A program made the translations under genes and the position numbers. Below the pieces are notes generated by a model. That model was given only the letters and a program-made list of their open reading frames with translations. It was not told where the DNA came from and did not search any database. 64,000 nucleotides of DNA from Bacteroidia bacterium (GTDB taxonomy: Bacteria; Bacteroidota; Bacteroidia; Flavobacteriales_D; Cryomorphaceae), in the NCBI GenBank assembly GCA_030427905.1, contig JAUICL010000001.1, positions 62,001 to 126,000 of the forward strand, read 5' to 3'. Shown here piece after piece: positions 18,586 to 22,916 of the stretch (positions within the stretch are counted from its first letter, which is position 1; each line of letters starts with the position of its first letter).

Positions 18586-18593
18586 TATATTTG
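18586..18593 (+). promoter_or_regulatory. -7 promoter element of the PIG-L deacetylase operon
   Basis: TATATTTG matches TAnnTTTG and lies 18 bases before the ATG at 18612. The -33 element is weak (TTTA around 18558). Confidence 0.5.
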
Positions 18594-18611
18594 TTTCGAA
18601 ATAACGAGAAT

Positions 18612-21110
18612 ATGAGAGTTCTTCTTACAGCCATCATGGCTGTTTTTGTTTTTACAGCAAAGGGGCAATTCCCCAACCGTGTGACTTCGTCAGACATTTA
18701 CCACGACCTTCAAAAAACGGAATCAGACGTCAGAGTGCTCTACGTAGCCGCTCACCCCGATGATGAAAACACTAGGCTTATCTCTTACTTTGAAAATGCC
18801 GAGCATTTCAGGACGGCCTACTTGTCTCTAACAAGAGGAGACGGCGGACAAAACCTGATAGGAACTGAGATCGGACCCGCCATTGGGGTACTGAGAACGC
18901 AAGAACTGCTAGCTGCCCGAAGTGTAGATGGAGGAGAGCAGTTTTTCACCCGCGCTGTAGATTTCGGTTACTCCAAGTCGTCGGAAGAAACGTTTGAGAA
19001 GTGGGAACAAGACATTATTCTAGGTGATGTGGTATGGGCAATCCGAAAATTTCGACCGCATTTGATTGTCACTCGATTTCCACCAACTAATTACGCTGGT
19101 CATGGCCACCACAAAGCCAGTGCTATCCTGGCCGAAGAAGCTTTTGATCTTGCTGGCGACCCCACCGCATTTCCTGATCAGCTTGATTTAGTGAGTGTAT
19201 GGACTCCAAAATCTATGTATCACAATACGAGTACGTGGTGGGTAAAAACGCTTGATGAAGATTATAAAAAAGGTGATGATCTTATCCGATTTGATGTGGG
19301 CTTGTTCAATCCAGTAATAGGAGAGTCATACGCGCAGATAGCCGCCCGCAGTAGGAGCCAGCACAGGAGCCAAGGATTCGGGTCTGATTATCCTGATGGG
19401 ACACAAATCGAGTATCTATCTTATGTAAAAGGAGTGAAATTCGACCCTAAGAATATTGATATCAATGCCCTGAGTCAAGATTGGGAAGACTCCAAGCTAA
19501 AAGAAGTACATCAGAAGATTATAGATGTCATTTCGAAATTTGACTATAAGTCACCAGAATCTGCCATCGACGAACTTGTAGAAATTGCTAAGTATCTAAA
19601 AACAGCCCCGCCAACTCCTTTCGTTGAGCAAAAAACCAAAGAAGTCCAAGAGCTTATTCTGCAGTGCCTGAATTTGGAAATGACACTCGATTTCGAGAAA
19701 AGATACCTCGTAAAAGCTTCGTCAAACTCGGCGAGATTGCGGATCACCAATCCAAGTGTTCATCCATTAAAAGTTCAATCTGCAACGTATGGGACCAACA
19801 CATGGACTTTCGACGATATACTTGCAGATAATCAAACACTCTCAGAAGAGCTTCTTTTTGAGATTCCAGCAAATGCCGAATTCAGCAATCCGTATTGGCT
19901 AAATGAACCTTTTGAAGGCACTTATCAGGTGGCCAACAGAGAAGATATTGGCAAACCTGAGAATGACCCAGCTCTCTTTGCTGATCTCGAACTGGAAATA
20001 AACGATTACGCTTTCACATATCAGCTGCCTGGATATCAAAAAACGGTTGATCTAGCTCGAGGCGTCATTTTCACTCCAGTAAATGTCGTACCCGGAGTTA
20101 ATTTCAACTTTTCAGAGAACGTTCTGATTGCAACGGACTCGGGCAGCAAACGCATTTCTGTCACGGTCACATCACACAAAGCCAATGTGAGTGGAGTGGT
20201 TAGAATCCAGCTCCCAAATGGGTGGACTTGTGAGCCCTGCACGCATAATCTCTCGTTTGATGAAGCTGAAACGACTAAACTCATTTCATTTGATGTTCGC
20301 GCTGGTGAGAATAGTACTTCTGGTACAGCCTCGTTGAGCTGGAGTACCGAAAAACGCGAAGTCACAGCCCTAAGCCTGCAGGAAATTGAGTATGAACACA
20401 TTCCATCACAAATCATTTTATCGCCTTCGAGTATACAACTCGAAGCCATACCGCTTGATCGAGGGGGTGTAAATCTGATTGGGTATATCGAAGGACCTGG
20501 AGATGATGTGGTGAAATACCTACGGGCGGCGGGCTACACAGTTGAAGTTATTCAACCCGATGATCTGCTAAATGCTGAAATGCTGCATAAGTACGATGCC
20601 ATCGTAACTGGAATTCGAGCTTATAATACCCGAGAAGACTTGGCTTCGGCAAATGGGATTCTGAACGATTACGTAGCTGCCGGAGGGACTTGGGTAGTTC
20701 AATACCAAACTTCTCGCGGTTTGAAAACAGATAAAATAGGACCTTTCGATTTTGAGCTTTCGCGCGAACGCGTAACCGATGAGTTTGCCGCGCCTAAGCT
20801 TTTGAATGGTGAACATCGCGTATTCATATACCCCAACACGATCCATTCCAAAGACTGGGATGGCTGGGTTCAAGAACGTGGTCTTTACTTTGCTGGCGAA
20901 TGGGCTTCTGAACTAGAACCACTTATTGCCTGGAATGATCCTGATGAGCCAGAGCGCAAAGGTGGATTACTCATTGGAGATTTTGGCGAAGGTCATTTTG
21001 TATACACAGGTATTTCGTTCTTCAGAGAGTTACCCGCAGGTGTGCCAGGAGCCTATCGCCTGCTGGCTAATATTCTTTCACTAAGCAAAGATTCATCGGA
21101 CAATGACTGA
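18612..21110 (+). CDS. secreted PIG-L/LmbE-family deacetylase with C-terminal amidotransferase-like domain
   Basis: 832 residues from the ATG at 18612. A Sec signal peptide (about 1-18, ending FTAKGQ) directs it to the periplasm or outside. Residues about 40-260 form a PIG-L/LmbE zinc deacetylase, with Zn ligands in VAAHPDDEN and in GHGHHKAS. The middle is beta-sandwich-like. The last 220 residues resemble a ThuA/class-I-glutamine-amidotransferase-like fold (YDAIVTGIRAYNT, GDFGEGHFVYTGISFFREL). The substrate is probably an N-acetylated sugar. It is followed, with overlaps, by a membrane microprotein and a sodium:solute symporter, suggesting coupled breakdown and uptake. Confidence 0.88.
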   Translation: MRVLLTAIMAVFVFTAKGQFPNRVTSSDIYHDLQKTESDVRVLYVAAHPDDENTRLISYFENAEHFRTAYLSLTRGDGGQNLIGTEIGPAIGVLRTQELLAARSVDGGEQFFTRAVDFGYSKSSEETFEKWEQDIILGDVVWAIRKFRPHLIVTRFPPTNYAGHGHHKASAILAEEAFDLAGDPTAFPDQLDLVSVWTPKSMYHNTSTWWVKTLDEDYKKGDDLIRFDVGLFNPVIGESYAQIAARSRSQHRSQGFGSDYPDGTQIEYLSYVKGVKFDPKNIDINALSQDWEDSKLKEVHQKIIDVISKFDYKSPESAIDELVEIAKYLKTAPPTPFVEQKTKEVQELILQCLNLEMTLDFEKRYLVKASSNSARLRITNPSVHPLKVQSATYGTNTWTFDDILADNQTLSEELLFEIPANAEFSNPYWLNEPFEGTYQVANREDIGKPENDPALFADLELEINDYAFTYQLPGYQKTVDLARGVIFTPVNVVPGVNFNFSENVLIATDSGSKRISVTVTSHKANVSGVVRIQLPNGWTCEPCTHNLSFDEAETTKLISFDVRAGENSTSGTASLSWSTEKREVTALSLQEIEYEHIPSQIILSPSSIQLEAIPLDRGGVNLIGYIEGPGDDVVKYLRAAGYTVEVIQPDDLLNAEMLHKYDAIVTGIRAYNTREDLASANGILNDYVAAGGTWVVQYQTSRGLKTDKIGPFDFELSRERVTDEFAAPKLLNGEHRVFIYPNTIHSKDWDGWVQERGLYFAGEWASELEPLIAWNDPDEPERKGGLLIGDFGEGHFVYTGISFFRELPAGVPGAYRLLANILSLSKDSSDND

Positions 21111-21216
21111 TGGAAATGAAAAAAAAGTGAAATGGCCTTTAGTCTATGCTATTGTCCTTTCGTGGATGGTCGCTTTTAGCTTGATTATGTACCAATTTTC
21201 GAGACTGACAGTATGA
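21103..21216 (+). CDS. 37-residue single-helix membrane microprotein
   Basis: An ORF from ATG 21103 to TGA 21214-21216. It overlaps the end of the deacetylase gene by 8 bases and the symporter start by 4 (ATGA). The product has a charged start (MTDGNEKKVKW), one hydrophobic helix of about 19 residues (PLVYAIVLSWMVAFSLIMY) and a short tail (QFSRLTV). Without this gene the symporter would be 102 bases from the deacetylase; with it, three genes are tightly coupled. Small partner subunits are known for some SSS transporters, so it may be an accessory subunit (inference). Confidence 0.72.
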   Translation: MTDGNEKKVKWPLVYAIVLSWMVAFSLIMYQFSRLTV

Positions 21217-22916
21217 GTGTATTAGACTATATCGTCATGCTTTCTACCTTGCTTTTAATAGTGGGGTATGGGACGTATCAAACGCGCAAATCAAAAAACA
21301 TTGAAGGCTATTTTTTGGGCGACAATCGCTTAAAGTGGGGTACTATTGGCCTATCAGTCATGGCCACGCAAGCCAGTGCTATCACATTCTTGAGTACCCC
21401 AGGGCTCGCGTACGAATCGGGAATGGCATTTGTGCAGAACTACCTAGGACTTCCTATCGCTCTGATCGTGGTATCAGCCGTATTTGTACCCATTTATTAT
21501 AAGCTCAAAGTATACACAGCCTACGAATACTTAGAGCAACGATTCAACATCGAAAGCAGGTTGCTGGCGGCCTTTCTTTTTCTGGTACAACGCGGACTAG
21601 CAGCTGGTATCACGATTTATGCGCCAGCTATCGTCCTGTCTTCTGTCCTCGGTTGGAATTTGAACGCGACAATACTTTTCGTTGGGGTCCTTGTCATTAT
21701 TTACACCGTGTCGGGAGGTAGCAAGGCAGTGAGTTTAACTCAAAAGTGGCAAATGGCCGTAATACTCATTGGTATGGCCATTGCGTTTGGGACGATCATC
21801 CATGGCCTGCCCGACGATGTCGGACTATGGAACAGCTTAAAAATAGCAGGGAAAGCGGGAAAAACAGAAGCGATCAACTTCTCCCTTTTCACCAATGAGC
21901 GGTACACCTTCTGGTCGGGAATACTCGGCGGATTTTTTTTAGCGCTCTCTTATTTTGGAACAGATCAGTCTCAGGTGCAGCGTTATCTGGGTGGAAGCTC
22001 AGTACGAGAAAGCAGAATGGGGCTCATGTTCAACGCCATTTTGAAAATTCCAATGCAGTTTTTCATTCTGCTGACTGGGGTTCTCGTGTTCATGTTTTTC
22101 CAATTTCAAGAACACGACGTACTATTTGATAGTACAACTCTCTCGAGACTGGAGAATACTGAGTACAAAGAAGAATTAGCTGCAAATAGAGAAGCACACT
22201 ATGAGAACCACCGTTCTAAAAAGGCGGCAGCATATGAACTTTCTGAAGCGCTCAACACCGAAAATCAAGAATTGATTGATGAACGAGCTGCAGAATATAA
22301 TGAGCTTCGGCTACAAGGGGTTGAGCTGCGGGACAACACCAAGGAAATGGTCATGCAAGCCTTCCCCGACAATTCGAGTCGCGATTCTGACTATGTCTTT
22401 ATCTCGTATGTTCTAGGTTTTATGCCAGCAGGTTTAGTAGGCCTTCTTTTAGCTGTGATCATTTCAGCCGCTATGTCGAGCACAGCGGGTGAACTAAATG
22501 CCCTCGGGTCTACTACTTCTATAGATTTTTACAAACGAGTGTTCAAGCAAAATCAGAGTGAAGAACACTATGTAAAAGCTTCAAAATGGTTAACGGCAGG
22601 ATGGGGTGTACTTGCCATTCTTTTTGCGCTGTACGCCAACCTATTTGAAAACCTTATTGAGGCTGTAAACATTCTTGGTAGCATATTCTACGGAACTATT
22701 TTGGGGATTTTCCTTACGGCCTTCTTCTTGAAGGTCGTGCAAGGGCGAGCTGTATTTGTTTCCGCCATTTTGGTCCAAGTTGGAATCTTTTTCATCTTCT
22801 TTCTGTTCGACGATAAGATCTCTTATTTGTATTACAACGTGATTGGATGTCTCGGAGTCATGTTGATTTCCATTATTCTGAATAATGTATTACCAAAAAG
22901 AAAAGCCTCGGCATAG
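21213..22916 (+). CDS. sodium:solute symporter (SSS family)
   Basis: 567 residues with about 13-14 membrane helices. SSS features include YFLGDNRLKWGTIGLSVMAT near the N-terminus, SQVQRYLGGSSVRESRMGLM (about 252) and the helix AAMSSTAGELNALGSTTSID (about 422). Between helices at about residues 298 and 393 sits an unusual hydrophilic, strongly helical insertion of about 95 residues rich in Glu, Lys and Arg. The substrate is not predictable; the operon suggests a product of the secreted PIG-L deacetylase. Confidence 0.9.
   Translation: MSVLDYIVMLSTLLLIVGYGTYQTRKSKNIEGYFLGDNRLKWGTIGLSVMATQASAITFLSTPGLAYESGMAFVQNYLGLPIALIVVSAVFVPIYYKLKVYTAYEYLEQRFNIESRLLAAFLFLVQRGLAAGITIYAPAIVLSSVLGWNLNATILFVGVLVIIYTVSGGSKAVSLTQKWQMAVILIGMAIAFGTIIHGLPDDVGLWNSLKIAGKAGKTEAINFSLFTNERYTFWSGILGGFFLALSYFGTDQSQVQRYLGGSSVRESRMGLMFNAILKIPMQFFILLTGVLVFMFFQFQEHDVLFDSTTLSRLENTEYKEELAANREAHYENHRSKKAAAYELSEALNTENQELIDERAAEYNELRLQGVELRDNTKEMVMQAFPDNSSRDSDYVFISYVLGFMPAGLVGLLLAVIISAAMSSTAGELNALGSTTSIDFYKRVFKQNQSEEHYVKASKWLTAGWGVLAILFALYANLFENLIEAVNILGSIFYGTILGIFLTAFFLKVVQGRAVFVSAILVQVGIFFIFFLFDDKISYLYYNVIGCLGVMLISIILNNVLPKRKASA

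Follow-up and report, generated by a model that had tools for sequence, protein, structure and literature searches.

A 37-residue membrane protein, encoded directly upstream of an SSS-family symporter gene in the 64,000-nucleotide stretch of Bacteroidia bacterium DNA analysed here (the window), is quite probably a translated, single-helix inner-membrane accessory subunit of that symporter. Judged from cross-genome comparison, the microprotein open reading frame (ORF) is a real gene. The accessory subunit that an earlier note on this DNA had suggested remains the best explanation of its pairing with the symporter; binding itself is deduced from the pattern, with a small coevolving patch as the one direct hint.

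The ORF begins with an ATG at 21103 and ends with a TGA at 21216 on the forward strand, and its 37-aa product is MTDGNEKKVKWPLVYAIVLSWMVAFSLIMYQFSRLTV. Its start overlaps by 8 nt (21103-21110) the 3' end of the upstream operon gene, which encodes a PIG-L/LmbE-type deacetylase of 839 aa (18591-21110, forward strand; Pfam PF02585, 1.7e-11). Its stop codon overlaps the start of the symporter gene (21213-22916, forward strand, 567 aa; Pfam SSF, 4e-40; NCBIfam TIGR00813, 1e-70) by 4 nt in an ATGA at 21213-21216, an arrangement likely to couple translation of the two proteins. If the ORF is disregarded, a gap of 102 nt (21111-21212) separates the deacetylase and symporter genes. The product has a single hydrophobic segment, at about residues 13-32, and a charged N-terminal end. 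The bounds, both overlaps and the filled gap given in the earlier note proved exact, and its description of a hydrophobic helix with charged ends agreed with this segment and with the charge read at the N-terminal end. Short ORFs are abundant in this genome, with 97 ORFs of at least 30 aa overlapping one 11-kb stretch in the ORF listing, so the ORF is weak evidence when seen in one genome, and the case for a gene rests on comparison across genomes.

In a first survey, 60 related genomes were searched with the symporter and 30 genomes were matched. All but one of the loci with a readable 5' side had, between the deacetylase and the symporter, an ORF whose product of 32-47 aa contained one hydrophobic helix; in nearly every case it overlapped the symporter start in an ATGA. 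A profile (A1) built from 28 microprotein members of this survey matched an ORF in 41 of the 100 genomes searched from the order and in 72 of the 296 from the phylum, and at the loci fetched for these matches the ORF was, almost without exception, directly upstream of the same symporter. Seventy-one of the 72 microprotein-bearing genomes of the phylum also contained the symporter, compared with 114 of the 296 overall (Fisher test, 8e-37, a value that ignores kinship). A diverged copy was present at many of the symporter loci that the profile did not match.

The final count took in 316 distinct loci of homologous symporters, each readable for at least 150 nt upstream. A matching ORF was located directly upstream in 298 of them (about 94%), comprising 297 that were scored and one diverged copy (L168), and position, strand, size and a W-x3-Y-helix pattern were shared by the 298. 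Members of the family are 33-48 aa long with one hydrophobic helix, and the named carriers include Flavobacterium, Tenacibaculum, Polaribacter, Pontibacter, Algoriphagus and Marivirga. In a second phylum, that of a Chthoniobacterales metagenome-assembled genome (MAG), the symporter was present in 11 of 145 genomes; the ORF was upstream in all 11, with the 4-nt overlap in 10. The microprotein was also found in MAGs labelled Opitutales, Deltaproteobacteria and Myxococcales, where binning errors in a single MAG are possible. Across these genomes the recurrence of the ORF is far beyond chance, and its steady genetic linkage to an SSS gene (298/316 loci, and 11/11 in the second phylum) is as expected of an SSS accessory subunit. 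Loss of the start, frame or hydrophobic pattern in close relatives with the same operon, which the earlier note had named as the outcome that would speak against the ORF, was not seen among seven same-family relatives: all seven kept these features, six as read beside the symporter and one (G002) in a copy matched by the profile on another contig. Nearly all relatives outside the family kept them as well.

Selection was apparent on the encoded protein. In an estimate from 53 independent pairs of closely related loci, dN/dS was 0.20 in the microprotein frame versus 1.12 and 1.82 in the other two frames, so that the codon-substitution test proposed earlier returned purifying selection in the microprotein frame only. 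Within the membrane helix (codons 11-36, 21133-21210, forward strand), conservation had a period of 100 degrees (permutation P = 1e-4), and the conserved residues fell on one face, at positions 11, 15, 18, 22, 26, 29, 33, and 36. The consensus residues at these positions are W, Y, V, L, I, F, T, and F, and those in the window are W, Y, V, M, S, M, S, and T; W11 is retained in 94% of members and Y15 in 97%. The sum of lysine and arginine was higher in the N-terminal flank than in the C-terminal flank in 265 of the 294 members and lower in 2 of the 294, and the predicted topology is therefore N-in, C-out.

These patterns bear on the possibility that the ORF is a leader cistron which only feeds ribosomes to the symporter start, by coupling or by bringing the mRNA to the membrane, and whose peptide has no function of its own. 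Such a role would fit the exact 4-nt ATGA overlap, found in 158 of the 297 called loci, but many members have no overlap (Flavobacterium-type loci, for example, have short gaps instead), the encoded protein itself shows purifying selection and is conserved along one side of its helix, and the ORF persists away from the symporter in three genomes (G372, G151, and G197). A functionless leader is thus quite improbable.

Two genes flank the microprotein, and because the upstream gene varies and other SSS genes of this genome are without the ORF, its partner is, on these genomic comparisons, the symporter rather than the deacetylase. In the upstream DNA of the four other SSS loci of the same genome, no convincing microprotein match was found. 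The deacetylase is a usual but not constant neighbor: among the 179 ORF-carrying loci for which 1.4 kb or more of upstream sequence was available, it was adjacent in 138, further off in 15, and absent nearby in 26. The 138 adjacent cases would suit a membrane subunit or anchor of the PIG-L deacetylase, but where the deacetylase is separated or absent the ORF is still beside the symporter, as it is at some loci with visible gene insertions upstream of the microprotein, which makes this assignment very improbable. Both the leader cistron and the deacetylase as partner are thus disfavored by the way selection acts on the ORF and by the constancy of its symporter neighbor. The deacetylase itself has a signal-like N-terminal segment, and its PIG-L match is limited to residues 50-184 of 839, the remainder being without a Pfam match.

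An intact microprotein distant from the symporter was found in the three genomes named above, which argues for function in trans. In G372 (L095, contig C78, at about 15 kb), the intact microprotein and the symporter share a contig but lie about 108 kb apart; in the sister genome G380 the two are adjacent as usual. In G197 and G151 (L177 and L179), the microprotein is approximately 15 kb from the symporter, next to a gene judged by eye to be WbqC-like and a convergent anion-transporter-like gene. Fifteen loci contained the symporter with no ORF nearby (L032, L139, L156/L160/L163, L291/L293, L326/L342, L333/L380/L381/L383, L368, and L385). Several lineages therefore keep the symporter after loss of the microprotein, which indicates that the microprotein is auxiliary rather than strictly required. 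At one locus (L101; G126, contig C19, 30500-33400), the microprotein ORF is intact and the reading frame of the adjoining symporter is interrupted soon after it begins; the three other sampled members of that genus have the symporter and not the microprotein.

Both the losses with symporter retained and the rare relocations would also fit a small membrane regulator that acts transiently on the symporter, for example by affecting its turnover by FtsH, with no stable subunit formed; MgtR and MgtU act in this way on Mg2+ transporters (review PMC10710835). Near-constant adjacency suggests co-production, however, and the conserved face, like the coevolving patch, points to stable contact, so that a purely transient regulator is unlikely. 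No natural fusion of microprotein and symporter was found among the symporter loci. Long open frames upstream of some symporters were rejected as fusions, being out-of-frame readings, and an open frame of 822 residues in G651 (L364, contig C78) was rejected since it represents a symporter with a long acidic C-terminal extension.

An AlphaFold2 model of the symporter (pLDDT 83.8, pTM 0.82) aligned with the sialic acid symporter SiaT (5nva) over 468 residues (VIA Z 42.0, rmsd 2.7) and with the SGLT2-MAP17 structure (8hez) over 485 residues (Z 36.9, rmsd 2.7), and NIS and SMCT1 also matched it structurally. The profile match and the LeuT-type fold place the symporter in the SSS family (PF00474). 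The alignment to SGLT2 stops at about SGLT2 residue 555, and there is no further C-terminal helix in the symporter.

Coevolution between the two proteins was analyzed by mean-field DCA of a paired alignment of 294 members, with an effective number of about 200. The strongest inter-protein pairs (symporter residue first) were 218-32 and 220-33, and 220-32 was fifth; in a tree-based co-change test, 220-33 ranked 9 and 220-32 ranked 53 of 21,762. The top observed DCA score, 10.7, was above the maximum of 9.7 in nine simulations of independent evolution on the same tree, and the placement of three of the top five pairs in one small patch was seen in 0 of the 9, although nine simulations are few and the one patch carries the signal. 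Both sides of the patch (218-220 and 32-33) are predicted to be periplasmic, which is suggestive of a periplasmic contact between symporter and microprotein. Other top inter-protein pairs (276-21 and 85-18), as well as a TM0 pattern in a DCA with 206 sequences, were rejected because they fell within simulated noise or had no co-change support.

Translation, coupling, binding and an effect on transport are the steps that we infer for the accessory subunit. The microprotein would be translated first, and the overlap of its stop codon with the symporter start would allow both chains to be made together. Its short charged tail would remain in the cytoplasm, with the helix spanning the membrane and the short C-terminal end in the periplasm. 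The one conserved face of the helix would pack on the outside of the 13-helix symporter, plausibly with contact at the periplasmic TM5-TM6 loop near symporter residues 218-220. The likely role would be to aid the folding, stability, membrane level or activity of the symporter, as MAP17 does for SGLT2, and the microprotein would not be part of the transport pathway itself.

Pfam, NCBIfam and PDB sequence searches with the microprotein gave chance-level matches only. Pfam profiles, including DUF485 and DUF997, had no match to the 28 microprotein members at E 0.1; no match to DUF4212/Na_symport_sm (PF13937, TIGR03647) was found among these members, nor was PF13937 found in the genome of the window. 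A PDB chain profile search gave two chance-level matches, neither of them MAP17, with a 38-position profile that is weak for remote homology. Searches of annotated plasmids for microprotein copies gave no match, and no bacterial single-helix SSS partner was found in the open-licence papers searched. The family therefore appears to be absent from the protein-family libraries searched and distinct from DUF4212, DUF485 and DUF997; the expectation that it would be missed thus holds with respect to such libraries, in which no Pfam or NCBIfam model matches the microprotein.

Small membrane proteins are encoded beside several other SSS symporters. DUF4212 (TIGR03647) is a small membrane subunit encoded beside the VC_2705-type symporter gene. 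Its first helix loosely resembles that of the microprotein (a YW+xN pattern), but it is about 77 aa long with a GFxLGFWFAQQGS segment, whereas the microprotein family, of 33-48 aa with one hydrophobic helix, is without the GFWFAQQGS segment; homology to the first helix, plausible by eye, was rejected at an hhalign profile-profile probability of 2.1%. YjcH (DUF485) and YhdT (DUF997), encoded beside the SSS symporter genes for ActP and PanF, respectively, are both larger than the microprotein. AcrZ, MgtS, MgtR and MgtU, small bacterial membrane modulators of transporters, are like the microprotein in size, membrane location and action on a transporter, but they belong with other transporter families and are not described in the review as fixed SSS operon partners (PMC10710835). 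MAP17 (PDZK1IP1), an accessory subunit of human SGLT2 and SGLT1, is reported to enhance surface expression and uptake by SGLT2 and docks on TM13 of SGLT2 (PMC10203128). The likeness is that of a small membrane partner of an SSS-fold transporter, SGLT2 being a structural relative of the symporter described here; no sequence relation between MAP17 and the microprotein was detected. TM13 has no equivalent helix in this symporter, and the docking site would therefore have to differ from that of MAP17.

On balance, we lean towards regarding the microprotein as an unlisted single-helix subunit family, near-universal in one SSS clade (in Bacteroidota and at least one other phylum), which would be a bacterial counterpart of the SGLT2-MAP17 pair that docks elsewhere and probably arose independently. 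The effect of MAP17 on SGLT2 has been argued between surface level and activity, and the bacterial pair would offer a simple system in which to study how a subunit of one helix affects an SSS transporter. Where the microprotein was left out, structures and assays of this SSS clade may be incomplete, and the microprotein adds a conserved family to those that the searched libraries contain. The symporter also has a charged helical hairpin of approximately 90 residues (window 22110-22380, residues about 300-390) in a predicted periplasmic loop before TM8. Its helices, at 319-349 and 352-383, were modeled with pLDDT mostly above 90, and given that the SiaT alignment covers 468 of the 567 symporter residues, the hairpin may be a clade-specific insertion.
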